This document shows positions 2,645-28,177 of a stretch of DNA of 28,883 nt, one piece after another. This DNA is from a virus. Location: positions 1-28,883 of IMG/VR virus record IMGVR_UViG_3300036832_001341. One strand, given 5' to 3'. The position numbers were made by a program, and so were the translations under genes. Each line of letters begins with the position of its first letter. The stretch's first letter is position 1. Under the pieces are notes generated by a model. The model did not search any database, had not been told where the DNA came from, and was given only the letters and a program-made list of their open reading frames with translations.

Positions 2645-2667
2645 ACTGTAGCACCAATCATGCGCTC
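2645..2667 (-). promoter_or_regulatory. Extended -10 promoter with degenerate palindromic operator (copy 1)
   Basis: Read on the minus strand, GGTGCTACAGTTG carries an extended -10 (TGC then TACAGT at 2650-2645) overlapping a 19-bp element (2649-2667) in the same register as the other copies. This copy is the most degenerate full-register one in its arms. It precedes the winged-helix gene that starts at 2608. Confidence 0.55.
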
Positions 2668-2674
2668 TCTGCGT

Positions 2675-2761
2675 TCACTGAGCCCAGCCGTGCATGTACG
2701 CGGCCATTGCTCCGAACGCCACGACGACGAAGAAGATCATCACCCACTTTTCACGGGTCAT
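2675..2761 (-). CDS. 28-aa single-span membrane protein
   Basis: This very short protein has a basic N-terminus (MTREKW) and then an uninterrupted hydrophobic stretch (residues 7-22, with MIFFVVVAFGAMAA), ending with YMHGWAQ. It looks like a single transmembrane segment, N-terminus inside. ATG at 2761 overlaps the TGA of the preceding gene (ATGA), supporting translation. Function unknown; tiny membrane proteins occur among phage accessory and lysis genes, but nothing specific can be claimed. Confidence 0.65.
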   Translation of the reverse strand: MTREKWVMIFFVVVAFGAMAAYMHGWAQ

Positions 2762-3009
2762 ACTGTCTCCGCCCAGCGCCCGTAAAGCCGCTCCAGCTCA
2801 CCAGACGGGATCCCGCGCGGATCACCGAAACCGCCCTCGGCCAGCCAGTCCACGAACGCCTGCGCGCGGTCCTCGGGCGCGTCGCCGTCCTCGCCCCTGT
2901 GAAAGACCGGGCCGAACGCCCAGCCGGTCACGCTGTCGAACAGACAGGCGATCTCGCGCGCATAGCCGTGGTCGCCCTGCTCGTGGCCTACCAGGATCCT
3001 GGTGCTCAT
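2758..3009 (-). CDS. Hypothetical protein (83 aa)
   Basis: I do not recognise this protein. It begins MSTRILVGHEQGDHGY and continues with a Trp/Phe/Asp/Glu-rich helical sequence. The start is fixed by a perfect start-associated sequence (CCGACCGAGGAG) five bases upstream and by the ATGA overlap with the Toprim gene. The N-terminal strand followed by GHEQGDHGYA could belong to a small Rossmann-like fold, but that is a guess. Confidence 0.7.
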   Translation of the reverse strand: MSTRILVGHEQGDHGYAREIACLFDSVTGWAFGPVFHRGEDGDAPEDRAQAFVDWLAEGGFGDPRGIPSGELERLYGRWAETV

Positions 3010-4031
3010 TCGTTCTCCTCGGTCGGTTGGTCTCCGTTCAAGCTCTTGACGATCTCCTCCCAGCGCTGCGACGCCTGGCGCAGCAGCCGCTGGCCGTCCT
3101 CCTCGCGCTCGACCGCCGCGTCCCAGACGTCGGTGTCGATCAGCGCCTCCACGTTGGTGCGCACCAGGCCGGACAGGACGTCGGGCGGCAGCGCGTCCAG
3201 CTCCCAGCTCTCGTGGCCGTAGTCGCGGATGTAGCCCGCCGCGCGCGAGTCGCTGACCTTCGCCGGGTTGGGCGGCGGGTTGTACTGGCGCACCTGGTCC
3301 ATGTTCAGCGCGATGCGGTCGACGGTGAAGCGGTCGAGCGCCTCGCGAGCCCACTGCTGCAGCGACAAGTTCTGATTCTCGCCGCTGTAGGTGTCCCAGT
3401 CGGGATCCTCGCTGGCCCGGCCGTATGCGTAGTCGCTGGCGAGAAATAGGCTCAGCCGGTCGGTGATGTCGCGGGTCATGTCGATCCCCGACGGGTCATG
3501 GTCGCCGAGGTGCAGGATCGTGATCCGCTTGCCCTTGAGCGCCTGCTCCAGCAGCCGCTGGCCCGCCGCCCACATCTCGCTCTGCGACGTGTAGCCGCGG
3601 CAGGAGAAGTAGGGGACGTCCAGCTCGCGGCTGACGCCCTGGATCACGCCGACGAGCGCGTCCTTCTCGATCCACACCTCGACGTAGTCGCCCTGGGCCT
3701 CCCACAGGTCGACCTTGTAGCTGCGCGCGGTCGCCGCAACGATGTCCGCCGGGTCGCGCCAGTGCTGGGTGGAGCGCACGTTGCGCGTGCGGTCGACGAT
3801 GTGGTTCCAGTCGATCTCGCCCGCCAGTCGCGCGTCGTTGACGATCGAGCCCAGGCGCTTGTAGGAGCGCTCGGTGTTGGGGATCAGGCCCCTGGCGACG
3901 TGCTGGTAGAAGAGCTGGCGCAGCGTCAGGTCATAGCCCTGCGCCTCGTACTCCTCCAGGATCTGGTTGGCCGTGCGAATCGCCTCCAGCGTCTCGGCGC
4001 TGAAGCGCTTGCTCTCGTAGGAGATCCTCAC
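3006..4031 (-). CDS. Spo11/TopoVI-A-like Toprim-domain protein (341 aa)
   Basis: Residues about 15-85 look like a winged-helix-type unit (LTLRQLFYQHVARGLIPNTE, then YKRLGSIVNDARLAGEIDW). Residues 115-190 form a Toprim fold with the conserved acidic residues: E122 in WIEKDAL and the DxD pair D177/D179 in HLGDHDPSGID. The combination E-K-x-A plus D-x-D-P-x-G is the pattern of topoisomerase VI subunit A and Spo11 rather than of DnaG. The catalytic tyrosine of the 5Y-CAP domain cannot be assigned by eye (Y42 is one candidate). It probably acts on DNA by cleavage, nicking or strand passage, but the reaction is unproven. The GTG start at 4031 overlaps the upstream TGA (GTGA). The C-terminus ends QPTEENE because it contains the start-associated sequence of the next gene. 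Confidence 0.8.
   Translation of the reverse strand: MRISYESKRFSAETLEAIRTANQILEEYEAQGYDLTLRQLFYQHVARGLIPNTERSYKRLGSIVNDARLAGEIDWNHIVDRTRNVRSTQHWRDPADIVAATARSYKVDLWEAQGDYVEVWIEKDALVGVIQGVSRELDVPYFSCRGYTSQSEMWAAGQRLLEQALKGKRITILHLGDHDPSGIDMTRDITDRLSLFLASDYAYGRASEDPDWDTYSGENQNLSLQQWAREALDRFTVDRIALNMDQVRQYNPPPNPAKVSDSRAAGYIRDYGHESWELDALPPDVLSGLVRTNVEALIDTDVWDAAVEREEDGQRLLRQASQRWEEIVKSLNGDQPTEENE
3015..3026 (-). promoter_or_regulatory. Start-associated sequence CCGACCGAGGAG (exact)
   Basis: An exact copy five bases before the ATG at 3009. It lies inside the 3' end of the Toprim gene, where it is translated as Pro-Thr-Glu-Glu. Confidence 0.85.
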
Positions 4032-4246
4032 GACGTCACGACCCTGTCGACCGCGTAGCTGGCCCACCAGGTGGGGTCATTGCTCCAGAACGGAGCCTCG
4101 TCGCGTTGGACGCGCAGCTCGTCGGTCCCGTCGGACTGAGGGACGACCTCCAGGACCGTGCCCCAGTAATAACCGCCGCCCTCGTGCGTGAGGGAGTAGA
4201 TGCCGCCACGGTGGTGCACTCGATCTCCGATCGCGGCCTTCATCAC
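4028..4246 (-). CDS. Small beta-rich protein (72 aa)
   Basis: The sequence has the look of a small SH3-like barrel: GDRVHHRGGIYSL, a Gly/Tyr turn, WGTVLEVV, ELRVQRDE and a Trp-rich end. Family and function are not recognised. The start is either GTG at 4246 (overlapping the upstream TGA as GTGA) or the adjacent ATG at 4243. A similar THEG-x-x-YY-x-G segment occurs in the protein at 9034-9252, so the two may be distant paralogues. Confidence 0.65.
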   Translation of the reverse strand: MMKAAIGDRVHHRGGIYSLTHEGGGYYWGTVLEVVPQSDGTDELRVQRDEAPFWSNDPTWWASYAVDRVVTS

Positions 4247-4545
4247 CCCGCCGCCTTCGTGACGACGTACTCGCCGTCCCGGCGCTCGACCACGGCCAGC
4301 TTGTTGAAGTCCTCCAGGCCGATGTCGAACCAGGCTTCGACAGCCTCGTCGCGGTCGGCCAGCTTGAACATCGTCAGCGTGCGGACGTAGTCGCCGTCGC
4401 CGTGCAGCAGGTGCGTGACGATGATGTTGACGCCGCTGTCGTCGAGCCGCTCGATCATCTGGCTGCTCAGCGTGCGGTTGTACTTCCTGCTGACGGCTGC
4501 CCGGTTGAGAGCGACGACGGTATCGGCACCCATAATCTTGCTCAT
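4243..4545 (-). CDS. Hypothetical protein (100 aa)
   Basis: I do not recognise this protein. It has a mixed alpha/beta pattern (VNIIVTHLLHGDGDYVRTLTMF, then AVEAWFDIGLEDFNKLAVVERR). It is the first gene after the 4.58 kb promoter, and its start is set by an exact start-associated sequence six bases upstream. The transcript leader is only about 25 nt. Confidence 0.75.
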   Translation of the reverse strand: MSKIMGADTVVALNRAAVSRKYNRTLSSQMIERLDDSGVNIIVTHLLHGDGDYVRTLTMFKLADRDEAVEAWFDIGLEDFNKLAVVERRDGEYVVTKAAG

Positions 4546-4551
4546 TGCTAC

Positions 4552-4563
4552 CTCCTCGGTCGG
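4552..4563 (-). promoter_or_regulatory. Start-associated sequence CCGACCGAGGAG (exact)
   Basis: An exact copy six bases before the ATG at 4545, close behind the 4.58 kb promoter. Confidence 0.85.
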
Positions 4564-4574
4564 ATTGTGTGTTC

Positions 4575-4597
4575 AGTTTAGCACGCGTCGTGTGCTA
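4575..4597 (-). promoter_or_regulatory. Extended -10 promoter with palindromic operator (copy 2)
   Basis: The palindrome TAGCACGCGTCGTGTGCTA (4579-4597) overlaps the minus-strand -10 hexamer TAAACT (4580-4575), preceded by TGC. The outer three bases of the palindrome (4597-4595) are the TAG stop codon of the preceding gene. No -35 hexamer is evident. Confidence 0.8.
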
Positions 4598-5239
4598 GCC
4601 GGGCATCTCCCCGAGCGCCTCGTTGGCCCGGTCCATCGCTGCCTCCCGGCGCTCCTCGCGCTTGGCCTGGACGTGCTCTGCGAACTCGTCGGCATCGACC
4701 GGCTTGTCGTCCTCGTCGGTCTCGCCCTCGTAGTCGGCCAGGAACTCGTCCTCGTCGGCCTCGGGATCGTCCATGTTCTCGATCTCGTCGGCGATTGACT
4801 CCACCTCGTCGGCAACCGACTCGCACGCCTCGGCCTTCTCGCGGATCTCCTGCGACTGGTAGGTCTCGTGGCCGAAGCCTTCCTCCATGTTGTCGGCGGA
4901 CTCGCCGTAGCTCTCGGATGCTTCGCGCAGGGACTCGGCGTAGCCGCGCACGGCCTCCGCGATGTCGCTCAGGGTCAGCTCGCCGTCAGTCACCGCGAGC
5001 GCATCCTCGGCAGCCTCCTGCCCGGCGTAGATCGTCTGGAGGTGCGGGCTGGTGGTCTTGTCCGATTCGCGGATCGGGCAGGTCGCGCAGAAGTTCTTGC
5101 GCTGGCTGGAGCGCCCGATCCGGTTCGCGAACCAACGGTATGAGTCCCCCGGCTTGATCTCGGTCCCGCACTTGTCGCAGCGCCGTGCGCGCCCGTCCTT
5201 GCGGCCCTTCGCCGCCTTCACATAGGTCACTCTCGCCAT
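4595..5239 (-). CDS. Zinc-ribbon protein with long acidic tail (214 aa)
   Basis: The basic N-terminus carries a four-cysteine zinc ribbon, C21-x2-C24 and C51-x2-C54 (RCDKCGTEI and NFCATCPI). From about residue 80 the protein is strongly acidic and helical, with many Glu and Asp, then a basic helix before the end. The ribbon suggests nucleic-acid or protein binding; I know similar ribbon-plus-acidic phage proteins, but no defined function. ATG at 5239 overlaps the upstream TGA by one base (TGATG). The stop codon lies in the palindrome of the next promoter. Confidence 0.8.
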   Translation of the reverse strand: MARVTYVKAAKGRKDGRARRCDKCGTEIKPGDSYRWFANRIGRSSQRKNFCATCPIRESDKTTSPHLQTIYAGQEAAEDALAVTDGELTLSDIAEAVRGYAESLREASESYGESADNMEEGFGHETYQSQEIREKAEACESVADEVESIADEIENMDDPEADEDEFLADYEGETDEDDKPVDADEFAEHVQAKREERREAAMDRANEALGEMPG

Positions 5240-5458: not shown

Positions 5459-6061
5459 TCAGGCCGGGTCGAAGGCGTAGAGCTGGCCGTTGACCGTGGC
5501 GAAGTCGATCTCACCATTGGCGCTGCAGTCCCGCGCGACCATGTCCAGGTCGAGGTGGTTCAGCAGCAGGTCGATGACGTCGATCGCACCGTCGCTGCCG
5601 TAGCCCCACCCGCCGCGCTCCTTCGGCACGTACTCGCCCGGCTGGACGCCCTCGTAGCCGAGGCTCTGGACGCGCTCGCGGGCCCAGTCGGCCTCGCTGT
5701 CCCAGGCACCGCGGCGGGCCTCCTGGAAGCTGCGCTCGTCGACGTCGTCCAGGTCGGGCTCGACCGCCTCGACGAACGCGATGAACTCGTCACCGAACTC
5801 TTCGATCAGCGCGCCGATCCTGGCGATCTGCTCAAAGCTGGCGTACTCGCCCAGCTTGTAGGTCAGGTCGCCGAAGCCGTCATAGTCGTGGATCGCCCAC
5901 TCCTCGGCATGTGGCTCGGGGCTGGAGGCGAGGATCTCGTCCTTGGCCTCGTTCAGCTCGTCGGCGTCGGTCGCGTCGACCCAGCGGCCGTGCAGCTTGC
6001 CGTTGTTGTAGGCCGCCAGGTCGGCGATCCAGACCTTCGGCGTATCGGTCGCCACGGTCAT
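5459..6061 (-). CDS. ardA: ArdA-like antirestriction protein (200 aa)
   Basis: ArdA proteins are acidic DNA mimics that occupy type I restriction-modification enzymes and protect incoming DNA. Hallmarks visible here are an N-terminal strand with AAYNNGKLHGRWVDA (residues about 16-30), the core EEWAIHDYDGFG (about 53-64) and a following helix with GALIEEFGDEFIAFVEA, plus a very high Asp/Glu content over the whole chain. The length is close to the usual 165-200 residues. The C-terminal part (DLLLNHLDLDMVARDCSANG) is more divergent. ATG at 6061 overlaps the upstream TGA (ATGA). It sits in a leftward operon of small genes, where an early protective function would make sense. Confidence 0.9.
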   Translation of the reverse strand: MTVATDTPKVWIADLAAYNNGKLHGRWVDATDADELNEAKDEILASSPEPHAEEWAIHDYDGFGDLTYKLGEYASFEQIARIGALIEEFGDEFIAFVEAVEPDLDDVDERSFQEARRGAWDSEADWARERVQSLGYEGVQPGEYVPKERGGWGYGSDGAIDVIDLLLNHLDLDMVARDCSANGEIDFATVNGQLYAFDPA

Positions 6062-7555: not shown

Positions 7556-7578
7556 ATTGTAGCACAGATCGTGTGCTA
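7556..7578 (-). promoter_or_regulatory. Extended -10 promoter with palindromic operator (copy 3)
   Basis: The palindrome TAGCACAGATCGTGTGCTA (7560-7578) overlaps the minus-strand -10 TACAAT (7561-7556) preceded by TGC. The first transcribed bases contain TGCGGCC (7550-7544), five bases after the -10, as at copies 7 and 9. No -35 box is evident. Confidence 0.85.
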
Positions 7579-9613: not shown

Positions 9614-9636
9614 ATTGTAGCACACATCGTGCGCTA
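9614..9636 (-). promoter_or_regulatory. Extended -10 promoter with palindromic operator (copy 4)
   Basis: The palindrome TAGCACACATCGTGCGCTA (9618-9636) overlaps the minus-strand -10 TACAAT (9619-9614) preceded by TGC. The outer bases 9636-9634 are the TAG stop codon of the preceding gene. Confidence 0.85.
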
Positions 9637-12137: not shown

Positions 12138-12358
12138 TGTGTCTCCTCGGTCGTTTCCTTCACCCCTGAGGATAGCACACATCGTGCGCTCCAGGCCTGG
12201 TCCATCGCCGACCAGGGGGTACGCCCCTCGGCGGCCAGGTAGCCGCCGCCGGGATGCTCGACGTAGGCGCGGTAGCGCTGGCCGCGCTTGACCACCCAGC
12301 CGACCACCCGGCCGTCGGCCTCGATGTGGCGGCGGCGGCGGAGTACCGGCTCAGTCAT
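12134..12358 (-). CDS. Hypothetical protein (74 aa)
   Basis: The N-terminal part is basic and strandy (RRRRHIEADGRVVGWVVKRG, YRAYVEHPGGGYLAAEG) and resembles the short wing-like repeats of phage integrase-arm or AP2-like modules, but the match is weak. The last 20 codons run through an operator palindrome, the -10 element and a start-associated sequence (ending KETTEETQ), so the C-terminus is probably unconstrained. It overlaps the upstream gene by 8 nt. Confidence 0.65.
   Translation of the reverse strand: MTEPVLRRRRHIEADGRVVGWVVKRGQRYRAYVEHPGGGYLAAEGRTPWSAMDQAWSARCVLSSGVKETTEETQ
12143..12154 (-). promoter_or_regulatory. Start-associated sequence (one mismatch)
   Basis: ACGACCGAGGAG, five bases before the GTG at 12137, inside the preceding gene, where it is read as Thr-Thr-Glu-Glu. 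Confidence 0.8.
12169..12191 (-). promoter_or_regulatory. Extended -10 promoter with palindromic operator (copy 5), inside a gene
   Basis: The palindrome TAGCACACATCGTGCGCTC (12173-12191) overlaps the minus-strand -10 TATCCT (12174-12169) preceded by TGC. Unlike the other copies it lies wholly inside a coding region, the C-terminal 20 codons of the 12134-12358 gene. Confidence 0.75.
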
Positions 12359-13477: not shown

Positions 13478-13500
13478 AGTGTAGCACACGTCGTGCGCTA
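13478..13500 (-). promoter_or_regulatory. Extended -10 promoter with palindromic operator (copy 6)
   Basis: The palindrome TAGCACACGTCGTGCGCTA (13482-13500) overlaps the minus-strand -10 TACACT (13483-13478) preceded by TGC. The outer bases 13500-13498 are the TAG stop codon of the preceding gene. Confidence 0.85.
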
Positions 13501-14057: not shown

Positions 14058-14080
14058 AGTGTAGCACACATCGTGTGCTC
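14058..14080 (-). promoter_or_regulatory. Extended -10 promoter with palindromic operator (copy 7)
   Basis: The palindrome TAGCACACATCGTGTGCTC (14062-14080) overlaps the minus-strand -10 TACACT (14063-14058) preceded by TGC. TGCGGCC (14052-14046) follows five bases after the -10, as at copies 3 and 9. It lies eight bases after the large-terminase stop. Confidence 0.85.
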
Positions 14081-17784: not shown

Positions 17785-18075
17785 TCAGCTAGCGACCGGT
17801 TCGCGGTCAGGGTCGTCTTGACCCGCACCGCGATTCAGACGCCGGTTGTCTTCGACCCAGTCCTGCATCTTCAGGATGTCCCTGCGATACCAGACCGGCG
17901 TGGCCTGCAGATGCGCCGCCGTCGGCGGCATCACGCCGCGCTTGACCCATCGCCCGATGCGTGGGCGTTCCACGCCCAGAAGCTCCGCCGCCTCGGCGGT
18001 CCCGACGATGTCGAGCTGCTTGACCGGCCGGTGCTTCGGGGCGCTGATCGGCTCGGCCCCGTTCTCCTTGCTCAT
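17785..18075 (-). CDS. MerR/excisionase-like DNA-binding protein (96 aa)
   Basis: Residues about 22-75 carry a winged helix-turn-helix of the AlpA/MerR/excisionase type: IVGTAEAAELLGVERPRIG, WVKRGVMPPTAA, VWYRRDILKMQDWV, where the last part is the usual helix after the wing. Such proteins act as transcription regulators or recombination directionality factors; with no integrase in view, regulator is more likely. ATG at 18075 overlaps the TGA of the 25-aa leader gene (ATGA), and GAGGGGAG lies upstream. It is controlled by the 18.16 kb promoter. Confidence 0.8.
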   Translation of the reverse strand: MSKENGAEPISAPKHRPVKQLDIVGTAEAAELLGVERPRIGRWVKRGVMPPTAAHLQATPVWYRRDILKMQDWVEDNRRLNRGAGQDDPDREPVAS

Positions 18076-18158: not shown

Positions 18159-18181
18159 AGGGTAGCACACGATAAGCGTTA
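18159..18181 (-). promoter_or_regulatory. Extended -10 promoter with partly degenerate operator (copy 8)
   Basis: The element TAGCACACGATAAGCGTTA (18163-18181) has one strong arm and one weakened arm. It overlaps the minus-strand -10 TACCCT (18164-18159) preceded by TGC. The outer bases 18181-18179 are the TAA stop codon of the preceding gene. Confidence 0.75.
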
Positions 18182-18463
18182 CCGGTCCATCCGCCTGCGG
18201 ATCGCATCGAGGCACGGGCAGACCCATCTGCCCGCAGTGCAGCCTGCGCCCATCGCGGCGAGCTGGGCTCGCGTCGTGCGCACAGTGATCCCGCACCGGC
18301 ACGCTCGCGCGCGCGGCCGGGACATCTCTTCGCGGATGATCGTCGCCAGCTTGGAGCTGGCCTCCTGCTCGCGTTTGCTCTGCGCTTCGCGCCGGGCGCG
18401 CGCGAGCTGGCGGTGCTGCTCGCGCGCGGCGCGCTCCTCTTCGAGCGGCGTGGTCACGGTCAT
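18179..18463 (-). CDS. Helical protein with Cys cluster (94 aa)
   Basis: Residues 8-48 are one long charged helix (EEERAAREQHRQLARARREA, then EQEASSKLATIIREE), probably a coiled coil. The C-terminus holds C55, C57, C75, C82 and C84 (RACRCGITV, GAGCTAGRWVCPCLD), a likely metal site. Family unknown. ATG at 18463 overlaps the upstream TGA (ATGA). Its TAA stop is part of the next operator. Confidence 0.7.
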   Translation of the reverse strand: MTVTTPLEEERAAREQHRQLARARREAQSKREQEASSKLATIIREEMSRPRARACRCGITVRTTRAQLAAMGAGCTAGRWVCPCLDAIRRRMDR

Positions 18464-18777
18464 CGCCGCTTGCGCAGCGCCTTGCCCGCGTCCTCCAGCC
18501 AGTGCCGAGCCTCCGTGAGGCTGGTCTCGACGTTGCCGTTGTATCGCTTGAGGTTGTCCGTCATGGCGTTGTGGAATGCCTGGAGGCAGCTCACACTGGT
18601 CCTCAGGGCCTCCACGACGCGGCGCTCTTCGGTCATGGTCTCGTCTTCAAGCAGCCCGTACGGGATCTCGTCCAGCTTCGCGTAGGTCTCGCTCAGGAGC
18701 CCGGCGACGGTCTCGTGCGCCAGGATCGAGCCCGGCACGATCTCGGTGCCGTCCTCGGTGTAGATGGTGGTCTTCAT
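18460..18777 (-). CDS. Hypothetical protein (105 aa)
   Basis: I do not recognise this protein. The N-terminal part is strandy (MKTTIYTEDGTEIVPGSILA), the rest helical (TVAGLLSETYAKLDEIPY, VVEALRTSVSCLQAFHNAMT, LTEARHWLEDAGKAL). It is the first leftward gene of the divergent promoter region; the start at 18777 has a start-associated sequence four bases upstream. Confidence 0.75.
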   Translation of the reverse strand: MKTTIYTEDGTEIVPGSILAHETVAGLLSETYAKLDEIPYGLLEDETMTEERRVVEALRTSVSCLQAFHNAMTDNLKRYNGNVETSLTEARHWLEDAGKALRKRR

Positions 18778-18806: not shown

Positions 18807-18816
18807 ATGATAGCAC
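18807..18816 (-). promoter_or_regulatory. Leftward -10 of the divergent promoter pair, with operator half-site
   Basis: On the minus strand GTGCTATCAT gives the extended -10 TGC plus TATCAT (18812-18807). Only the half-site next to the -10 matches (TAGCAC at 18811-18816 on the plus strand); the far arm is replaced by part of the rightward operator. Confidence 0.6.
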
Positions 18817-18819
18817 GGC

Positions 18820-18842
18820 TAGCACTCGACGTGTGCTACAAT
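18820..18842 (+). promoter_or_regulatory. Rightward extended -10 promoter with palindromic operator (copy 9)
   Basis: The palindrome TAGCACTCGACGTGTGCTA (18820-18838) overlaps the -10 TACAAT (18837-18842) preceded by TGC. TGCGGCC (18848-18854) follows five bases after the -10. With the leftward half-site it forms a divergent switch with three TAGCAC-type half-sites within 28 bp. Confidence 0.85.
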
Positions 18843-18894: not shown

Positions 18895-19551
18895 ATGCAA
18901 GCGATCCGGAAGATGAATCCGGGCGCGTACCGTCAGGCACGCTGGCACTACGCCGTCGGCGATGATTCTACACGCACGATGTGTGGTAGGGACGTTACCG
19001 AGATCACAGGCGACCGGCGCGGTTCTTGGAACCGCGGCCGGATCGAGCGCCAGGATGCCGAGGGGATGCCCGAGTATTCGATCTGCGCCACGTGCCGAAG
19101 CAAGGTGCACGGCGGCGGCTCGATCAAGATGAGCAAGGCCGACATGAAGGCCCTGATCGCACGCGCAGCCGAGGCCGGTGACGCCGCCTTCCGCGAGGCA
19201 ATCCCCACACCGATGGTGGTGTACACGCCCCGCAACATGATGGGGTCGCTGATGGGCGGCGACGACGGCGGCGCGGATCCGAGCAAGCCCGTTGACTTCG
19301 TCAGCGAGGGTGTGTGCGGCACCGCCTGGGTCAACGTCAAGCCCGGCGGCTCGCGCTTCGCCCGGTTCATCCTCAGCGAGAAGCTGGGCCGCGCAGACAG
19401 CTACAGGGGCGGCGTGAGCCTGAGCCTCTACAGCATCTGCGGCGACCGCATGTCGCAGTCGCTGACGCGCTGGGAGGCAGCGGCCCACGCGGTCGCGGCA
19501 GTCCTGCGCGAAGCCGGGATCAAGGCCTATGGTCAGAGCTGGATGACCTGA
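18895..19551 (+). CDS. Conserved phage protein of unknown function (218 aa)
   Basis: The N-terminal third has a probable metal site (C30, C64, C67, H72; SICATCRSKVHG). The C-terminal half contains CGTAWVNVKPGGSRFARF, then YRGGVSLSLYSICGDRMS, then SLTRWEAAAHAVAAVLREAG, a strand-strand-helix unit that I recognise from widespread actinobacteriophage proteins with no known function. First gene of the rightward operon. ATG at 18895 was chosen because the frame upstream of it is the leader; the end overlaps the next gene (TGATG). Confidence 0.8.
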   Translation: MQAIRKMNPGAYRQARWHYAVGDDSTRTMCGRDVTEITGDRRGSWNRGRIERQDAEGMPEYSICATCRSKVHGGGSIKMSKADMKALIARAAEAGDAAFREAIPTPMVVYTPRNMMGSLMGGDDGGADPSKPVDFVSEGVCGTAWVNVKPGGSRFARFILSEKLGRADSYRGGVSLSLYSICGDRMSQSLTRWEAAAHAVAAVLREAGIKAYGQSWMT

Positions 19552-21185: not shown

Positions 21186-21731
21186 TCAGGCGACCGCGCC
21201 GAGAGAGAGCTGATCCCGATCTTGCTGCGCACGACCGAGGGTCGATGGCAAGGTCCAGATCCTGACATGCGCGCCAGTCGGCTCGCCGGGCTCGGCGTAC
21301 ACCTTCTCGACGTGCACGACCGCGTTGCGCGAATCATCCTGCCAGACGACGCCGGTCAGGGCGTCCTCCAGCGCTCGCGCAAGCTTCACCGCATCAGGCT
21401 TGGTGTGCGGGTACAGCGGTGCCGACGGCAGCAGCTTGCCCGCGTTGCGACCCTGGCCGAAGTGGCCTCCACCACGCCCCCGGAGAACCGTCAGCTCGAC
21501 GTAGAGCGGCGTCTCCAGGTCAAACAGCGCGCGCCCGTCCATCGCCCTGCTCGCCACGTAGGCGATGGCTGCGCGCCACTCCTTGCCCGCCGGACCAGCG
21601 TTATCGCTGACCCACATCTTCGGGCCGTCGGCACTCACGTGCATATGCGGGTCCTTGGAGCCCGCGCCCTTGGGCTGGCCGACGACCTGGAACGCCAGGT
21701 CGGGCTCTCGATCGGGTCGCTCGATGCGCAT
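21186..21731 (-). CDS. rusA: RusA-like Holliday junction resolvase (181 aa)
   Basis: RusA enzymes cut four-way junctions, in phages usually for recombination or before packaging. The fold is visible: LAFQVVGQPKGAGSKD at the start, a middle strand set (PLYVELTVLRGRG) and the signature PHTKPDAVKLARALEDALTG (106-126) followed by VVWQDDSRNAVVHVEKVY. The usual catalytic motif is K-P-D-x-D-N: here K111, P112 and D113 are present, but the second Asp is V115 and the Asn is K116; D132/D133 match the third acidic site. Activity may be altered. No clear ribosome binding site is seen 30 nt after the upstream stop. Confidence 0.82.
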   Translation of the reverse strand: MRIERPDREPDLAFQVVGQPKGAGSKDPHMHVSADGPKMWVSDNAGPAGKEWRAAIAYVASRAMDGRALFDLETPLYVELTVLRGRGGGHFGQGRNAGKLLPSAPLYPHTKPDAVKLARALEDALTGVVWQDDSRNAVVHVEKVYAEPGEPTGAHVRIWTLPSTLGRAQQDRDQLSLGAVA

Positions 21732-21760
21732 GCTGTGAGTCTACGGATCGCCGTGGACGC

Positions 21761-22768
21761 TTACCCCGCCAGGCGGTCGCGCGCACGCCGTGCGTTCAGC
21801 CTCTCGACCGCGCGGGCTGCGTTTGCCTTCTCGTTCGGGGGTGCTCCCGGGTCGGCCATGATCCGCTCACAGTCGACGATCTTGCGCTGGATCCCCAGAT
21901 CGTCCATGTGCGCCATCGTGGTCGCCAGGGACGTCTCGGTCCACTTGTCCAGGATGTTGAGGTAGTCGAAGATCCGCACCACGGTGCCCTGCGTCGTTTC
22001 CGACCAGTTCAGATCCGGCAGGTCGTAGGACTCCAGGGCTCGCACCGCCTCCATGATCGGGATCATCACGTCGTGGTACAGGTCCGCGTCCCCGCTCTTG
22101 CGCTTGGTGTACAGCTCGCGCAGCGGCTTGCCCGACTCCTTCTTCTGCTTCTTGGGCTGCATCGGTGCTTCAGTGCCCAGCGCTCGCTCGACGGCAACGA
22201 TCGCGGTGCACACTTCGCCGTAGCTGCCGTTGCTCAGCACCTTCTCCTCCAGGCCCGCATCCATGACGGCCGCAGCAGGCCACCCGTCAGACCGAGCCTT
22301 TGACGCAGCAACGATCTTCTCTCGATCCCATCCCGCCCGACTTCGATCGCGAACCCACTCCTGCACCGCGGGCACGCGAGACAACGACGGCTTGCCATCG
22401 GTGAACGTCGGCTCGGTCGCCTTCTTGGTCCTGTCCTTCTTCCTGGGCCCAGCCTTCGGCCTGTCCCCACGCTTGGCCTTCTGGTAGGCCGTATTCCAGG
22501 CAGGGCGAGCCTGGGTACCTGGGTACCCAGACTGCTTCCAAGCGTCCTTGCAGAATCCGACGTGCTTGTGTGTGTAGGGATTGCCCGTGCGCGCGTTGAT
22601 CCATCCAGCCGCCACCGCGCGCTGCGTCATCCCACCGTCGAGCAGCCGAACCACTTCCTCGGCCTGCGCCCAACGAGCGTCGTCGGCGGAGCCCTCGGCT
22701 GCGGCGATCTCCTGCTCCAGCCTGTTCAGCTTCGCGGTCGCCTCCACCGCGTGTGTTTCCTCGTGCAT
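21761..22768 (-). CDS. Hypothetical protein with HTH-like region (335 aa)
   Basis: I do not recognise this protein. Residues 10-65 are helical and contain an HTH-like tract (VVRLLDGGMTQRAVAAGW, then TGNPYTHKHVGFCKDAWK), then a Lys-rich segment (RKKDRTKKAT, QPKKQKKES) and a helical C-terminus. A DNA-associated role (replication or partition-like) would fit the basic linkers and the rusA neighbour, but this is inference. ATG at 22768 has AAGGAGAAGG upstream, a strong ribosome binding site that lacks the start-associated sequence. Confidence 0.7.
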   Translation of the reverse strand: MHEETHAVEATAKLNRLEQEIAAAEGSADDARWAQAEEVVRLLDGGMTQRAVAAGWINARTGNPYTHKHVGFCKDAWKQSGYPGTQARPAWNTAYQKAKRGDRPKAGPRKKDRTKKATEPTFTDGKPSLSRVPAVQEWVRDRSRAGWDREKIVAASKARSDGWPAAAVMDAGLEEKVLSNGSYGEVCTAIVAVERALGTEAPMQPKKQKKESGKPLRELYTKRKSGDADLYHDVMIPIMEAVRALESYDLPDLNWSETTQGTVVRIFDYLNILDKWTETSLATTMAHMDDLGIQRKIVDCERIMADPGAPPNEKANAARAVERLNARRARDRLAG

Positions 22769-22828
22769 GTCCTTCTCCTTTCAGACGAGCAGGGGCGAGC
22801 GCCCGAAGACGCCCGCCCCGAAATGCTC

Positions 22829-23560
22829 CTACTCGTCGCCGCCCTCGTCGGCGTCGCCGTCGCTGCCGTTATCCTTCCCGGCGTCGATCGTGCGCTTGAT
22901 CCTGTCGGTCCCAGCCTTCAGCCCGTCCTGGGCCTCGTTCTTGAACTCGTTCAGGAATGCGGTGCCGTGCTCGGGCACGCGATCCGCGGCCAGGTCCATC
23001 ATGGCCGAGTGCTTGTCCATCGCGGCCTTGATCTTCTTCCGCTGGGGCGCGGAGAAGTCCTCCAGAAGCGACCGCTTGTTGCGGGTTACGTAGATGCCCT
23101 TCTCCTTCCGGGGCACCTCTCGACGGCAGAGGATTCCCTCGCCGTTGAGTTGCGACTGGACCGGGCCGTCCGGATCCATGCTGGTCAAGCGCCAGATGTC
23201 TCCGTCGACGATGTCGTAGATCCTCACCGCCAGCGGCGGATCGGAGGTCTCGGCTGCGGCCGCCTTGCTGAGGCCAGCCAGGTCCAGAACCATCGCTGAA
23301 CGGGTCCAGTAGACCTTGTCCCGGTCTCCCGGCTTCACGACGACGCGATCCTTCACGCCCTCGTAGATCTGAACCGCCAACGCGTCACGGTTCAGCTCTC
23401 CCTGCAGAAGAAGCCCCTTGCTGGCGTAAAGCCCCAAGACCTCCTTCTTGGCCTGCGCGTCCAACTCCTCCGCAGTGCGGAGGTCCGGCTGAGCCTCGGG
23501 CTCGTCGTGAGCCTGCCCATCGACCTGGGGCTCTTCCGGAGCCCCTTCCTGCGAGTCCAT
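22829..23560 (-). CDS. Hypothetical protein (243 aa)
   Basis: I do not recognise this protein. The N-terminal 40 residues are acidic and Pro/Gln-rich, the middle has VYWTRSAMVLDLAGLSKAA and DPPLAVRIYDIVDGDIWRL, then a basic helix (DFSAPQRKKIKAAMDK), and the C-terminus is Asp/Gly-rich. ATG at 23560 has AAGGGAGAG upstream. It is the first gene of the leftward rusA operon. Confidence 0.7.
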   Translation of the reverse strand: MDSQEGAPEEPQVDGQAHDEPEAQPDLRTAEELDAQAKKEVLGLYASKGLLLQGELNRDALAVQIYEGVKDRVVVKPGDRDKVYWTRSAMVLDLAGLSKAAAAETSDPPLAVRIYDIVDGDIWRLTSMDPDGPVQSQLNGEGILCRREVPRKEKGIYVTRNKRSLLEDFSAPQRKKIKAAMDKHSAMMDLAADRVPEHGTAFLNEFKNEAQDGLKAGTDRIKRTIDAGKDNGSDGDADEGGDE

Positions 23561-23631
23561 AGACTCTCCCTTCACTAGGCCGGTGGGGAGCACCCTGGTT
23601 CTCAGGGCGGCCCCCGGCGGCGTTTGAAAAC

Positions 23632-23648
23632 AGAGTAACACGGCGTGT
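23632..23648 (-). promoter_or_regulatory. Possible leftward promoter with variant palindrome
   Basis: On the minus strand CGTGTTACTCTG gives an extended -10 (TGT plus TACTCT, 23637-23632) next to an 11-bp palindrome ACACGGCGTGT (23638-23648). The spacing and centre differ from the 19-bp operator, so this is only a possible relative of it. It would drive the 22829-23560 gene. Confidence 0.4.
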
Positions 23649-23689
23649 CAAGGTCCACCCCGTCCGTAGCGCCGGAAGCCCTCCCCCGG

Positions 23690-23703
23690 TACCCTTGCAA
23701 GTA
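23690..23703 (+). promoter_or_regulatory. Possible leaderless promoter of the XRE gene
   Basis: TACCCT (23690-23695) lies eight bases before ATG 23704 and no Shine-Dalgarno is seen, as expected of a leaderless repressor transcript. The -35 region shows no consensus. Confidence 0.45.
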
Positions 23704-23970
23704 ATGAGTGCGGCATCCGGTCGGCCCGACGCTGACCTTCTTCAGGCGAGGATCGCCTTCAACGTCCGCCTCGCGCGTACCCGGCGAGGACTGAGCCAGC
23801 GCCAGCTCGCGCGCCTACTGGACATCGACCCGATCCAGGTCAGCCGCTGGGAGCGCGGGCTCAATACACCGAGCACGACCAGCATCATCGCGCTCGCAGG
23901 CGTAACCGACGTCGACCCGGGCTGGTTCTACGCCGATCACGCGAACGACTCGGTCGCACTCACCGCCTAG
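23704..23970 (+). CDS. XRE/Cro-type helix-turn-helix protein, candidate repressor (88 aa)
   Basis: Residues about 15-70 are a lambda-repressor-like HTH: FNVRLARTRRGLSQRQLARL, then DIDPIQVSRWERGLNTPST (recognition helix PIQVSRWERG), then a helix with SIIALAGVTDVD. The rest is a short acidic tail, so it is a small repressor without a peptidase domain. The phage family commonly includes immunity and early-gene repressors. ATG at 23704 is preferred to TTG 23695. Its TAG stop lies inside an operator palindrome (23968-23986), so it would itself sit beside a site of the repeated set. Confidence 0.85.
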   Translation: MSAASGRPDADLLQARIAFNVRLARTRRGLSQRQLARLLDIDPIQVSRWERGLNTPSTTSIIALAGVTDVDPGWFYADHANDSVALTA

Positions 23971-23990
23971 CGCGTGACGTGTGCTACCCT
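23968..23990 (+). promoter_or_regulatory. Rightward extended -10 promoter with palindromic operator (copy 10)
   Basis: The element TAGCGCGTGACGTGTGCTA (23968-23986) overlaps the -10 TACCCT (23985-23990) preceded by TGC. Its first three bases are the TAG stop codon of the XRE gene. Confidence 0.75.
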
Positions 23991-23998
23991 CGGTGCAA

Positions 23999-24010
23999 CC
24001 GACCGAGGGG
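23999..24010 (+). promoter_or_regulatory. Start-associated sequence (one mismatch)
   Basis: CCGACCGAGGGG, five bases before the ATG at 24016. Confidence 0.75.
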
Positions 24011-24015
24011 GACCA

Positions 24016-25020
24016 ATGCCGTACAGCACCGACAACGCGATGCGCAACGCGGCACGAGACCGCGGCCTGCGCGTCAACAAGGAACGCGACACGAGGTGGC
24101 AGAAGGGCTCGTGGATCGTCCGTCACGCGTTCAGCCGAGAGCGCCTGCTGGCGGGCTCGCGCGATGAAGTCGACGCGTTCGTCGCCGCCTACAGCCCGGG
24201 CGAAGTTCGGCTGAACATCGTCTCGGCAATCCCGCGGGTGCTGGCCCTCGCCGTGATCGCCGACTGGCCCGAGGTGCGCGAGGACGACGGCGGATTTGAC
24301 TACGTCTGGGAGAGCCTGGAGCACATCCAGAAGCTGCTCGCCGACTTCGAACCCGAGGAGCGCTACGTGCGTCCCAAACCGCCACCGGAGCCGACGTCTG
24401 GCCTGGCGCTGCTCGGCTGGCGTGGAGGGGTCCTGGAGGCGCTGAACGTCCGCATGGACCTCAACTACCTGCACCTCGGCGACGTCTCGACGCTCAAGGC
24501 GATCGAGGACGAAGGCGAGCGCCGTCGCGCGCACGCCGAAGCCGGGCTCCTGCGGATGCTCGTCGACTACATCCTGGAGCACCGCGCCACCTGGCCCGAG
24601 ATCGCGGCCGAGGAGCGAGCGATCACATTGGAGGCCGAGGCGATCGCGTCGATCCGCTCGGACGCCGGGCGTCACGGCGACAGCGCCGAGAACCGGACGT
24701 TCCGGCTCACCAAGGCCGACGAGCGCGAAGCAAAGCTGAACGAGCGCCGGACCCAGCTCGACAAGCGGCTCGGGATCGACACGGTGCACCGCTACTGGTG
24801 GCCGTCGATCCGCGAGTCGCGCGAGGCACTGGAGCGCCTGCGCGACGAGATCATCGCGGGCCACCACGTCGAGAACCTGCCGCGAATCCACGAGGAGCTG
24901 GCCAAGCTCACCAAGCTGGTCGGGCGCATCGACGCGCTCGCGCTCAGCGCCGACCTGCGCGACCGCGCACGCAAGATGCGCCAGTCAGGCGACAAGCAGG
25001 AGATCGAGGAGGCGGGCTAG
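24016..25020 (+). CDS. Hypothetical protein with coiled-coil regions (334 aa)
   Basis: I do not recognise this protein. The N-terminus has a basic compact part (RNAARDRGLRVNKERDTRW, then WIVRHAFSRERLLAGS) that could bind nucleic acid; the middle and C-terminus are long charged helices (ERRRAHAEAGLLRMLVDYI, EREAKLNERRTQLDKRLG, RIHEELAKLTKLVGRID). It is driven by the promoter just behind the XRE gene, so it is likely to be controlled with it. Its last codon overlaps the end of the convergent tiny membrane-protein gene. Confidence 0.75.
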   Translation: MPYSTDNAMRNAARDRGLRVNKERDTRWQKGSWIVRHAFSRERLLAGSRDEVDAFVAAYSPGEVRLNIVSAIPRVLALAVIADWPEVREDDGGFDYVWESLEHIQKLLADFEPEERYVRPKPPPEPTSGLALLGWRGGVLEALNVRMDLNYLHLGDVSTLKAIEDEGERRRAHAEAGLLRMLVDYILEHRATWPEIAAEERAITLEAEAIASIRSDAGRHGDSAENRTFRLTKADEREAKLNERRTQLDKRLGIDTVHRYWWPSIRESREALERLRDEIIAGHHVENLPRIHEELAKLTKLVGRIDALALSADLRDRARKMRQSGDKQEIEEAG

Positions 25021-25652: not shown

Positions 25653-27551
25653 CTAGGGTTCATCCTCCTTCCCGTCGCCGGTCGGAGGATCGCTTGAGCC
25701 CCGGTTCACGCCGGGGCTCACTGTTTCTAGAAGCTCGGGCTGTAGCTGGTAGACGCGGTTCTTCTTCAGGTGCGCGCCGTTGGAGATCACACCGCGGTGG
25801 CCCTGGTTCTCCAGCGCCTCGTCGATGGCGTTCATGCCCCCGGCCCAGCGACGCCCTTCGCGGTGAAGCTTGTTCTTGATGTCCTCGCGGGTCACGGCCC
25901 CGGTCTCGCGGATCGTCTCGTAGCAGAAGGCCCCCAGGTCGAACCTGGCCGTCGGGGCGACGTTGACGTCCAGGCGCTCCTGCTTGCCGCCTTCGACATA
26001 GCGCTGGAAGCCCCCCCGCTTGCGATCGAACCGCACCGGCCAGTGCGAGCCGACGGTCGCGCCGTCTTCGGCAGCGTCGCCCTCGCGATCCTTCCACCAG
26101 TGCAGCCAGGTCATGCCGGGGTTCTTGCGCTCGACGCCCAGCAACATCTCCGCACCCCATTGATATGCGGAGGAGCCGAACAGGTCGTGGGGCGAGAGCT
26201 TCGGGGCCCCGCGCTGGTCCTGCGGCTTGCGGCAGTGCATCGGCAGCAGCAGCGCGAACTGGTAGCGCTCGCGCCAGTCGTCAAAGCGGCGCATCAGCTC
26301 GGTCGCGGCGCGCGTGTCGTTCGGATCTCCTCTATGGCACTTGTACAGCGGGTCGCAGAGCACAAGGTCGTAGCGGCCCTGCGCGAACGTCTTCTCCATG
26401 AACGCGACGGCGTCCGCGTCGGAGTCGAGCCCGAGCCCGTCCGGGACGCGGAGATACTGGACGGCCTCGCTCTTGTCCAGGCCGACCTCGCGCAGCACGC
26501 GCTTGACGGTGCGGGTGCCCTGCTCGACGTCGACTACGAGCGCCTTGAGGTTGCCCTTGCCCCTCCACTTGGGGCGCAGGAACTCCCGGCCGTGGACCGC
26601 CGACGCCACCATGTGCATCGTGAAGGTGGTCTTGCCGTGACCGGTCCAGCCGCCGATCACGATGCGGTGACCGCGGTAGATCAGCGGGCCCAGCAGGTAG
26701 CCCGACTCGTCGGGATCGGGCAGCGCCATGATCGCCTTGGCGGTCAGCACCTCCATCTTGGCCCGGGGCACCGGGCTGCTGGTGGTGACGTCGACCAGCG
26801 CGCCGAGCCCCAGGCCACCCTTGACGTGGTCGGTGACGTCCTTGCCGATCGCTGGCTCGAAGATCTTGACGGCGGCGGCGACACCCTGCAGCGCGTCGTA
26901 GACGGCGCGGGCGTGCTCCTGGCCGGGCCGCTTGCCGGTCTTGGGGTCGATCGGGTCGACGTCCGAGACGATCGCGACCTTGGCCCCGCGCAGCATCTCG
27001 GAGTACTCGGCGCGCCACTTCCCGGCACCGCCGGGGCAGGTGGTCGCGACCTTGCCCTTGGCCTCCAGCGTGTGCACGTCGCGCTCGCCCTCGACGAGGG
27101 TGATCAGCTCGCCCGCCTTGACCGCCGCGAGCACGCGCGGCAGCCGGTAGAGCACGCGCCGGGTGTCGCCCAGCGAGTACTCCCAGCCGCGGGCCTTGGG
27201 GCGACGCTGGCGGAAGGCCTTGGGCATCATGCGCTCGACCTGGAAGAGCAGCTTGCCCTGCTCGTCGACGTAGTCGTAGTGGTCGACGACGATGCGCTCG
27301 CCAGCCTCCTCGCTGGGTTCGAACAGCTCGCGCACGTCCATCTGCAGCGCCGCGGCGATCTGGTCAAGCGTGCACCCGGCGTGGCAGTACACGAGCGCCC
27401 GGCCGTCGACCCCCTGGCCGAGGTGGAAGCTGGGACTTCGATCCTCATGACTCACGCATTTCGCGTCCCAGCCCCTCCCCTCGTTGCCTCGTGGCTCGCA
27501 ACCCCTTACCTCCAGGGCGTCGAGCACGCGCTGTACGACCGGGCTGGGCAT
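25653..27551 (-). CDS. Primase/helicase: zinc finger, Toprim and RecA-like ATPase (632 aa)
   Basis: Three modules are in the expected order. A CHC2-like zinc finger (C32, H35, C56, C60; AKCVSHEDRSPSF, then VYCHAGC) recognises template. A Toprim domain follows with E154 in LVEGERD and the DxD pair D197/D199 in IVSDVD, the polymerase or nicking core of DnaG-type primases. The C-terminal half is a RepA/DnaB-like RecA ATPase with Walker A GWTGHGKTT (301-309) and Walker B LVLCD (D400). It should make primers and unwind DNA at the phage fork. The start at 27551 is fixed by a TAATG overlap with the upstream HNH gene; the frame continues to 27590 but only through the HNH gene. Confidence 0.92.
   Translation of the reverse strand: MPSPVVQRVLDALEVRGCEPRGNEGRGWDAKCVSHEDRSPSFHLGQGVDGRALVYCHAGCTLDQIAAALQMDVRELFEPSEEAGERIVVDHYDYVDEQGKLLFQVERMMPKAFRQRRPKARGWEYSLGDTRRVLYRLPRVLAAVKAGELITLVEGERDVHTLEAKGKVATTCPGGAGKWRAEYSEMLRGAKVAIVSDVDPIDPKTGKRPGQEHARAVYDALQGVAAAVKIFEPAIGKDVTDHVKGGLGLGALVDVTTSSPVPRAKMEVLTAKAIMALPDPDESGYLLGPLIYRGHRIVIGGWTGHGKTTFTMHMVASAVHGREFLRPKWRGKGNLKALVVDVEQGTRTVKRVLREVGLDKSEAVQYLRVPDGLGLDSDADAVAFMEKTFAQGRYDLVLCDPLYKCHRGDPNDTRAATELMRRFDDWRERYQFALLLPMHCRKPQDQRGAPKLSPHDLFGSSAYQWGAEMLLGVERKNPGMTWLHWWKDREGDAAEDGATVGSHWPVRFDRKRGGFQRYVEGGKQERLDVNVAPTARFDLGAFCYETIRETGAVTREDIKNKLHREGRRWAGGMNAIDEALENQGHRGVISNGAHLKKNRVYQLQPELLETVSPGVNRGSSDPPTGDGKEDEP
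25695..25720 (+). terminator. 10-bp hairpin inside the 3' end of the primase gene
   Basis: TGAGCCCCGG and CCGGGGCTCA pair perfectly around a 6-nt loop; on the plus strand CTGTTTCT follows. It could end rightward transcription coming from the 24-25 kb operon or the gene-free region. It is translated on the minus strand as part of the primase C-terminus. Confidence 0.5.
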
Positions 27552-28069
27552 TACGAAGCCTCCGAGATGGGCATGTGCTCTTGCCGCCAAGCAACCACGA
27601 CAGCCTCGGCTTCGTCGAGCGTGGCGTGCCGCCCGAGCCAGTAGTAGCGCCCATTCATCTCGGCTCTCGCTGACCAGCGCCCAGTCTGCTTACAGCGACT
27701 GACTCCGCGTACGCCAGTGGTCGAGTTACGTTGCGGTCCGCGACGGTTCTGGGCGTTTTGCGCGTGGCTAATGACGCGGAGATTCGTGCGCCGGTTATCA
27801 AGTCCGTTGCCGTTGCGGTGGTCGGCTTCGCCAGGGTCACCCCATGCGAGACCGAGCAGCTCGCGTGCTAGATAGATGGCCCGCTGACGCCCATCGACGC
27901 GCATCTTGCGGTAGGCGTGGTGGTCGCCGTTGGCACGCACCATGCGCGTCCAGCGGAACCGCATGGCCCACGGGTAGTCGCTGGGATCAACCAGCGCATA
28001 GGCGATCACAGCGCCTGCCGCGTTGTGCAGCGGGACTCGCTCACAGTCAAGCGTCGTCTCAGACGGCAC
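27551..28069 (-). CDS. AP2/HNH homing-type endonuclease (172 aa)
   Basis: An N-terminal HNH core carries YAYRKMRVDGRQRAIYLARE-like strands (split: HAYRKM at 51-56, IYLARELLG at 65-73), DHRNGNGLDN (83-92) and TNLRVISHAQNAQNR (95-109), the classic H-N-H spacing of phage endonucleases. An AP2 DNA-binding domain follows (about 117-165; GVRGVSRCKQTGRWSARA, WLGRHATLDEAEAVV). This architecture belongs to mobile homing endonucleases. It sits immediately upstream of the primase, overlapping it by TAATG. GTG at 28069 has GGAGGTCCC upstream. Confidence 0.9.
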   Translation of the reverse strand: MPSETTLDCERVPLHNAAGAVIAYALVDPSDYPWAMRFRWTRMVRANGDHHAYRKMRVDGRQRAIYLARELLGLAWGDPGEADHRNGNGLDNRRTNLRVISHAQNAQNRRGPQRNSTTGVRGVSRCKQTGRWSARAEMNGRYYWLGRHATLDEAEAVVVAWRQEHMPISEAS

Positions 28070-28158
28070 GGGACCTCCAATACTGGACGCGGGCCTCTTG
28101 GCCCGTCACCTCATGGCCGCCGTGGCCGACGAGCCCATTCCACGCGAACCGGATCACA

Positions 28159-28177
28159 GAGCACACTTTGTGCGCTG
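28159..28177 (-). promoter_or_regulatory. Orphan copy of the palindromic operator (copy 11)
   Basis: GAGCACACTTTGTGCGCTG is a good palindrome of the 8-3-8 type, but the hexamer in the -10 register is TCTGTG and matches the promoter poorly. It lies about 90 bases before the AP2-HNH gene. It may be an operator without a promoter or a decayed promoter. Confidence 0.6.

Follow-up and report, generated by a model that had tools for sequence, protein, structure and literature searches.

The window analysed here, a stretch of 28,883 nucleotides, is a fragment of a contractile-tailed phage of 105-125 kb. It belongs to a family of uncultured phages with large, GC-rich genomes that carry 20 to 30 copies of one palindrome each. 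A search of INPHARED for close isolates gave no nucleotide match, and TerL is only about 27% identical to that of SPO1-like phages. Eleven palindromic sites are found in the window, all of them where the first-pass annotation had located them, together with several genes for potential regulators (Table 1). Ten of the sites are joined to a -10 hexamer that reads as first described, each time with TGC in front of it. Gene calls were made in the present analysis.

Table 1. Palindromic sites, promoter elements and genes for potential regulators in the window
Feature	Position	Strand	-10 hexamer	Context
Palindrome (degenerate), score 16.9	2649..2667	-	TACAGT, 2645-2650	Non-coding; heads gene 2186-2608, 40 nt to start codon
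Palindrome	4579..4597	-	TAAACT, 4575-4580	Gene 4595-5239 has the distal TAG as its stop codon
Palindrome	7560..7578	-	TACAAT, 7556-7561	Heads gene run 7508 to 5459, ardA at its end; kept before orthologous gene in 5/7 genomes
Palindrome	9618..9636	-	TACAAT, 9614-9619	Distal TAG is the upstream gene's stop codon
Palindrome	12173..12191	-	TATCCT, 12169-12174	Inside a weak, possibly wrong gene call
Palindrome	13482..13500	-	TACACT, 13478-13483	Distal TAG is the upstream gene's stop codon
Palindrome	14062..14080	-	TACACT, 14058-14063	Kept in 5/6 genomes
Core small protein, MerR/excisionase-like winged HTH	17785..18075	-
Palindrome (degenerate)	18163..18181	-	TACCCT, 18159-18164	Upstream of core HTH gene 17785-18075; kept in 6/7 genomes
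Leftward extended -10, TGC-TATCAT	18807..18812	-		9 bp off the locked register; for gene 18460-18777
Palindrome, divergent region	18820..18838	+	TACAAT (rightward, locked), 18837-18842	Retained ahead of 18895-19551 family genes in 7/7 genomes
Core protein, 218 aa, no known function	18895..19551	+		Behind the best conserved site
HTH_3 (Cro/CI-type) protein, accessory	23704..23970	+
Palindrome	23968..23986	+	TACCCT, 23985-23990	For gene 24016-25020; first TAG ends HTH_3 gene 23704-23970
Site without -10	28159..28177	-		Upstream of primase-helicase gene

Form and distribution of the palindrome

The first-pass annotation had described the sites as two 8-bp arms around a free 3-bp spacer. The arms hold, as nine sites fit TAGCACAC-N3-GTGTGCTA with at most three mismatches, against 0.05 matches expected in shuffled sequence; those at 2649 and 18163 are degenerate and fail this cut, yet have their -10 in register. 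The spacer is not free: the palindrome centre is GWC, GAT or ATC, and this constraint brings the site closer to a 9-1-9 form, TAGCRCACGWCGTGYGCTA. The motif scan of relatives that had been suggested was run on the window and eight related contigs with a score threshold of at least 18, and returned 182 TAGCRCACGWCGTGYGCTA sites in the nine contigs, compared with only a few in reversed sequence. The palindrome is abundant in all relatives of the window.

Equal frequency in coding and non-coding DNA, which the first-pass annotation had named as evidence against its proposal, is not what is found: non-coding DNA makes up 10.5% of the total and holds the centres of 158 of the 182 sites (p about 1e-127). 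The palindrome stands as an inverted repeat upstream of a start motif and is restricted to non-structural genes, with zero oriented sites in the head and tail gene block of G001 (about 51-75 kb). The start motif, CGACCGAGGAG (GACCGAG), is present in 61% of the genes led by a site, versus 6.5% of other genes. At the other end of the palindrome, 56 of 137 sites have a distal TAG or TAA that doubles as stop codon of the gene before it. The claim that one factor could reach most non-structural operons is supported by this distribution, and one protein could probably switch most non-structural genes at once.

The site at 28159, formerly taken for an orphan, represents a conserved class without a -10 before the primase-helicase gene (the window, G001, G003 and G004), and G007 has one of similar form. 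In the window, a TAANNT hexamer of another promoter type precedes this site by about 14-17 bp.

Promoter register and shared bases

When sites are oriented by the next gene only (153 sites), 134 (87.6%) have a TANNNT hexamer with the palindrome's proximal end as its TA, compared with 9.8% at the distal end. These locked sites have TG two bases before the hexamer in 89% of cases and lie a median of 47 nt from the next start codon. Among 50 held-out sites from 21 other loci, 46 have a locked -10, and the reversed control gave one site. That no -35 box is conserved, as had been noted for the window, is borne out across the oriented set and the intergenic extended -10 elements. About 93% of the intergenic TGNTANNNT elements carry the palindrome, and extended -10 elements lacking it are rare (9/133). 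Other placements occur as well: displaced -10s lie about 9-10 bp further on, approximately one helical turn, and hardly any are shifted by half a turn; in a few sites the -10 sits 2 bp nearer; and a minority class has its palindrome centre near -30. Operator quality and -10 quality are positively correlated (rho 0.30, p = 4e-4), a weak and perhaps confounded relation. A late-type promoter motif, TCGTTTG-N-TANNNT, was seen in four places only.

The symmetry of the palindrome allows the bases shared with the promoter to be compared with their mirror bases. Position 14, the thymine of the TG, is T in 119 of the 134 locked sites, while its mirror base is G in 80, A in 28 and T in 25; in unlocked sites, T is present at position 14 in just 5 of 19 (p = 2e-8). 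At the mirror base the preferred letter depends on the lineage: it is G, but T in one lineage. Of the 18 sites of G006, which is divergent, 16 have T as the distal mirror base, and all 18 have T at position 14. Because the proximal T is fixed, its mirror base follows the lineage, and the proximal T is lost where the -10 has another location, two proteins appear to read the same base pairs. The distal TA, which is used by no promoter, is still kept (72% and 87%), which argues for a protein that reads the whole palindrome. The comparison of sequences establishes both this cis-architecture and the double constraint on it. It offers a clean natural case in which symmetry can tell apart the constraints that RNA polymerase and a regulator place on shared bases, as one arm would be read by both the regulator and sigma, and the other by the regulator alone.

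Candidate regulators and mode of action

The two proteins that the first-pass annotation had put forward for binding assays do not qualify as the general factor. The HTH_3 protein encoded at 23704-23970 is present in the window and G004 only, whereas sites are found in all relatives; the product of 2186-2608 is restricted to the window and G008, with a weak match in G006 and a homologue on fragment L014. The best phage-encoded candidate is instead the product of 17785-18075, the only recognisable core helix-turn-helix protein. This HTH_17/MerR-like protein is found in all large genomes, in most of them below the Pfam cut-off, and also resembles excisionases and terminase small subunits; it could also be one of the latter. 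Its list of winged-helix matches (RacA, BldC, MerR, lambda Nu1) supports the fold class only. The 218-residue core protein encoded at 18895-19551 is a second candidate. AlphaFold models of both are mediocre (mean pLDDT 62), and comparison of the two with PDB structures gave zero significant matches. A phage sigma factor was also considered and rejected, as sigma region 4 scores above the cut-off in G004 only and is not common to the group.

From the architecture of the sites we infer binding, dimerisation, the identity of the protein and the direction of control. The best explanation, to which we give about even credence, is a phage-encoded dimeric global repressor competing with RNA polymerase at 20-30 non-structural promoters. 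Each site would be the 19-bp operator of this protein and occupy roughly positions -29 to -11 in an extended -10 promoter, which would need no -35 and be read by the host RNA polymerase. The half-site on the promoter side, GTGTGCTA, would correspond to TGN plus the first TA of the -10, and the regulator and sigma would therefore read the same base pairs. A protein holding -12/-11 in double-stranded form would be hard to reconcile with an open complex, and binding at the conserved site ahead of the primase-helicase gene would occlude another promoter or act as a roadblock to it. The first-pass annotation had allowed that a bound protein might either block -35 contacts or substitute for them; of the two, blocking is favoured by the overlap with bases read by sigma. 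Mycobacterial TGNTANNNT promoters are strong even though they show no -35 consensus (PMC3898074).

The main alternative, possible but rather doubtful, is an activator: a phage protein bound to the palindrome that replaces the -35 and recruits or remodels the host RNA polymerase in the style of Lpa, MotA/AsiA or MerR. The absence of a -35 from this promoter class agrees with it, as do the MerR-like nature of the sole recognisable core HTH protein and the near-constant company of palindrome and extended -10, which would also fit an obligatory activator site. The displacement of other -10s by about one helical turn and not half a turn is likewise activator-like. There are precedents in P1, whose 11 late promoters carry a conserved inverted repeat that is the Lpa site (PMC10695390), and in T4, where a MotA box at -30 takes the place of the -35 and TGn occurs in half of the promoters (PMC2988021). 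What speaks against an activator is that the proximal half-site is the very sequence that sigma reads and that is melted at -11, and that some conserved sites have no promoter at the arm. The variable register (-2, 0, +9/+10) is a loose geometry that suits occlusion, and better operators accompany better -10s, the opposite of what is expected of an activator compensating weak promoters. ArdA is usually an early function, and the presence of ardA in a gene run behind such a site is counted for a repressor and against an activator, as is the lack of a phage sigma region 4 common to the group for a repressor. Counted against a repressor, besides the rarity of extended -10 elements that lack the palindrome and the one-turn displacement of other -10s, are the weakness and possible confounding of the correlation, the existence of MerR-type spacer palindromes, and the lack of lysogeny markers: a search for tyrosine integrase, resolvase and ParA found none, and there is therefore no sign of a lysogenic state for such a repressor to serve.

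Two further explanations are much less probable. Control by a host regulator, whose operators the phage would have gathered to place its early genes under a host signal, is improbable: it would agree with the phage binding protein being represented so far by candidate genes only, but a scan of 84,980 bacterial and archaeal genomes (GTDB) gave the full consensus once, on a contig without any gene family in common with these phages, and half-site preference differs among phage lineages. In repeated form, the consensus is found among viral contigs in this phage group only; this and its near-absence from cellular genomes argue for a phage-encoded factor. Most improbable is that the palindrome is a mere promoter part, or an RNA hairpin or terminator, without a dedicated binding protein. 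It does lie where upstream genes end, in many cases over the stop codon, and upstream transcripts would fold there; however, conservation extends to the distal arm with its TA, though RNA polymerase has no need of this arm, orientation is tied to the downstream gene, and mirror bases vary by lineage. In G006, the T/T at positions 4 and 14 cannot pair, and RNA pairing is thus broken.

Returning to the repressor, we propose, somewhat more tentatively than for the repressor itself, that host sigma and the regulator contend for the same base pairs at almost all extended -10 promoters, that stop codon, operator, promoter and start sequence form one portable cassette spreading to new genes as a unit, and that lineages drift apart in half-site specificity only within the arm not read by sigma. 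The compact cassette suggests a route by which a large phage may bring the majority of its non-structural operons under a single factor; the regulator, if found, could serve to time gene expression in high-GC actinobacteria.

Relation to known systems

Among known systems, the promoter cassettes called SAS/ESAS in Cluster K mycobacteriophages come closest (PMC3203893, PMC11373665). There too, cassettes are repeated between genes of the non-structural part, the promoter is accompanied by an inverted repeat and, at the ribosome site, by a conserved start-associated sequence, and the inverted-repeat consensus varies by lineage. The ESAS was described in 2011 and its role was still called unclear in 2024; its binding protein is not known, and repression has been suggested (PMC3203893, PMC11373665). 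However, it has a SigA-like -35 and -10, 17-18 bp apart, with imperfect 15-17-bp repeats and a spacer, whereas the phage sites described here have no -35, and one compact 19-bp palindrome fills the spacer and shares the bases of the extended -10. The start sequences differ as well, Cluster K having the 13-bp SAS GGGATAGGAGCCC at its start codons in place of CGACCGAGGAG. The novelty claimed for the fused site is thereby narrowed: cassettes of promoter, inverted repeat and start-associated sequence are known from Cluster K, and inverted-repeat or box elements standing in for the -35 from P1 and T4, but the exact sharing of bases between operator arm and extended -10 across a whole regulon was not found described.

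Dispersed operators are also known from L5 (stoperators) and phiC31, with 18-30 sites for one phage repressor (PMC4557955). Those of L5 are asymmetric 13-mers, largely outside promoters and many inside transcription units, which stop elongation, unlike the symmetric, mostly intergenic 19-bp sites studied here; the phiC31 sites are not said in that account to be fused to a -10.

The operators of MerR-type regulators likewise place a palindrome inside the promoter spacer, and the core candidate appears to have a MerR-like winged HTH. MerR-type activators can share this palindrome with RNA polymerase; their promoters keep the -35, with a spacer of 19-20 bp, unlike the sites of these phages. In P1, Lpa acts with host SspA on a palindromic site before the -10 at many dispersed promoters, and the inverted repeat occupies the place of the -35, a likeness by position only. 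The P1 element is a 9-bp repeat serving late genes, located near -22 and not known to be fused to the -10, compared with 19 bp, a shared TA and non-structural operons here. T4 middle promoters resemble the present ones in having a phage box in place of the -35 and in using the extended -10. The MotA box is asymmetric, bound by a MotA monomer and 12 +/-1 bp from the -10, whereas the palindrome reaches into the -10; the minority class centred near -30 is closer to the MotA box.

Recurrence and register of the palindrome

The eleven 19-bp palindromes that the first-pass annotation placed in the window lie at the correct coordinates with the hexamers claimed for them, and nine fit its motif with at most three mismatches, against 0.05 expected. 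Rescanning nine contigs (the window and eight related viral contigs, G001-G008) with a symmetric matrix derived from the sites gives the consensus TAGCRCACGWCGTGYGCTA and 182 sites at a score of at least 18, against only a few in the reversed sequence. Since the training partly used the scanned contigs, 21 other loci of the phage group were held out, with shared sequence removed first; they contain 50 sites, 46 with a locked -10 (a TANNNT whose TA is the promoter-proximal end of the palindrome), and the reversed control contains one. The scan of relatives, suggested by the same annotation, also shows that the motif is not equally frequent in coding and non-coding DNA: 158 of the 182 site centres are non-coding, a fraction that by the gene calls made here comprises only 10.5% of the DNA.

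When 153 sites are oriented solely from the next gene start, 87.6% of them have a TANNNT that starts with the final two bases of the palindrome, in agreement with the proposed fusion to the -10, against 9.8% at the distal end and at most 6% at every other offset. With the first T of the -10 set as -12, the palindrome spans approximately -29 to -11, centred on -20, and the start codon follows the site at a median of 47 nt. The hexamer, most frequently TATCCT, TACAAT, or TACACT, is preceded by TG in 89% of the 134 locked sites. No column around -35 carries information in the aligned oriented sites, which bears out the earlier claim that a conserved -35 is lacking. The palindrome stands in register at 112 of the 133 intergenic extended -10 elements located within ~115 nt of a start codon and lies 7-13 bp farther upstream at 12; nine lack it, several of these carrying shifted or truncated versions. 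Single palindromes at G001:86499, G003:75575, and G005:105557 have a -10 at either end and gene starts on both flanks, and could each be one operator shared by two divergent promoters.

The shared arm and the mode of control

Position 14, the T of the TG, is T in 119 of the 134 locked sites but in only 5 of 19 unlocked ones (p = 2e-8), whereas at the mirror position, 4, the locked sites show G 80 times, A 28 times, and T 25 times. In the divergent lineage G006, T occupies position 4 in 16 of the 18 sites and position 14 in all 18. Judging by these counts, the extended -10 fixes the shared arm, whereas the arm not needed by RNA polymerase obeys a lineage-specific preference. The T/T mismatch at 4/14 in G006 also makes an RNA hairpin unlikely, and retention of the distal TA (72% and 87%) is explained only by a protein reading the whole palindrome. 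The repeated palindrome, its fixed register, the missing -35, and this double constraint are established at the level of sequence.

A dimeric phage protein would bind the palindrome and the host sigma factor would read the -10; the host factor is invoked because no phage sigma factor common to the group was found and TGNTANNNT is a strong mycobacterial form, with no -35 consensus there (PMC3898074). The phage protein could possibly turn these promoters on, as nearly all extended -10 elements are accompanied by a palindrome and displaced ones prefer one helical turn. At sites without a locked hexamer, extended -10s occur at offsets 26-27 (eight cases), approximately one turn past the usual 17, with single cases at 23, 25, 28, 29, and beyond; in the held-out set, two of three such sites have one at 26. 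This phasing is only suggestive, because several displaced sites resemble a 9-bp duplication of the half-site. Repression is favoured, since protein and sigma factor would need the same proximal-arm bases and -11 must melt, sites devoid of a -10 are kept, the geometry is loose, operator and -10 quality rise together across sites, and ardA belongs to a palindrome-headed operon.

The orphan at 28159, a class with no -10 at the arm end, has counterparts in G001, G003, and G004 and a similar form in G007, all upstream of the primase-helicase gene. Because a TAACGT or TAAGTT hexamer lies 14-17 bp upstream of the site in four of these cases, a protein bound there would sit just downstream of the start of this predicted promoter.

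Candidate binders and the phage group

A single exact match to the consensus exists among 84,980 bacterial and archaeal genomes, and the multi-site contigs examined all belong to this phage group, which points to a phage-encoded binder. The single occurrence (L127:2997-3015) is in an Eremiobacterota MAG from Mitchell Peninsula, on a contig with no protein family in common with these phages. The two regulators initially proposed (23704-23970 and 2186-2608) are not supported as the general factor, both being accessory. Among 55 core small proteins compared with Pfam and PHROGs, only 17785-18075 has a recognisable HTH; it is present in six of six large genomes, usually with its own upstream site, and its closest folds in a weak model seem to be MerR-type winged HTHs, but also lambda Nu1 and excisionases. 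Its gene precedes that of the large terminase by a few genes, and the protein is possibly the terminase small subunit. The 218-aa protein 18895-19551, for which no relatives of known function were found, is the other candidate. G006, with its different half-site preference, encodes the core HTH protein with two tandem winged-HTH units (G006:22114-22545).

The 28,883-base window, of 68% GC, is an IMG/VR viral record whose terminase has matches 74-88% identical in other IMG/VR contigs. Eight contigs were compared with the window, six of 105-125 kb (G001-G006) and the shorter G007 and G008; repeats of ~127 bp at both ends of G001 and G004 fit complete circular assemblies. Tail sheath, tape measure, and RecT are present in the group, searches for integrase, resolvase, and ParA found none, and no nucleotide match exists among 50,697 isolated phages. 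The block 21758-25020, containing the HTH_3 gene, is an accessory segment, ~80% identical to G004 along its full length and mostly absent from other relatives. Sigma-70 region 4-like domains exceed the cut-off only in G004 (113326-113460 and 39537-39614).

Features of the window
Feature	Position	Strand	Remark
Topoisomerase-like gene	3006-4031		341 codons
ArdA antirestriction protein	5459-6055		
Large terminase	14088-15803	minus	
Leftward displaced promoter	18807-18812		offset 26-27 type
RusA	21186-21731		
Primase-helicase	25653-27551		
Exact CGACCGAGGAG	3015, 4552, 6279, 7515, 8346, 8642, 9585, 10475, 12143, 13451, 14018, 18873		first bases; just 5' of start codons

Cassette structure and known systems

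Of 137 sites that follow a co-directional gene, 56 supply the stop codon of that gene through the first TAG/TAA of the palindrome. GACCGAG is found no more than 30 nt from the start of 94 of the 153 genes led by a site and of 76 of the 1,179 remaining genes (odds ratio 23), and is nearly absent from G006. The cassette therefore runs from the stop through operator, extended -10, ~40-nt leader, and start motif to the gene. The start-associated CGACCGAGGAG, with a 23-fold enrichment (as odds ratio) at palindrome-led genes, is longer than a Shine-Dalgarno site. Sites are kept before orthologues of 18895-19551 (7/7), 17785-18075 (6/7), and a 621-aa family (6/6), and the remaining ones precede different genes in different genomes.

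The nearest known system is SAS/ESAS of Cluster K mycobacteriophages, in which promoters with an inverted repeat and a start-associated sequence recur between genes; the repeats are lineage-specific and their binder is unknown (PMC3203893, PMC11373665). Since SAS/ESAS retain a -35 and their repeat is a spaced one, the cassette is a variant rather than a member. Phage elements can stand in for the -35 at P1 late (PMC10695390) and T4 middle promoters (PMC2988021), and dispersed repressor sites number 18-30 in L5 and phiC31 (PMC4557955). In the part of the literature covered, no regulon-wide operator is described in which a half-site doubles as the extended -10.

In G001, a 1,027-aa protein (109935-113018) joins tRNA nucleotidyltransferase-like and phosphohydrolase-like domains, and the palindrome of its gene overlaps the end of the preceding gene. 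Promoter-like TCGTTTG-N-TANNNT sites without a palindrome (G001 54223, G002 24906, G005 15791, and window 1476) precede a head-region gene family and the 1017-1391 gene, and are possibly a second, late promoter class.
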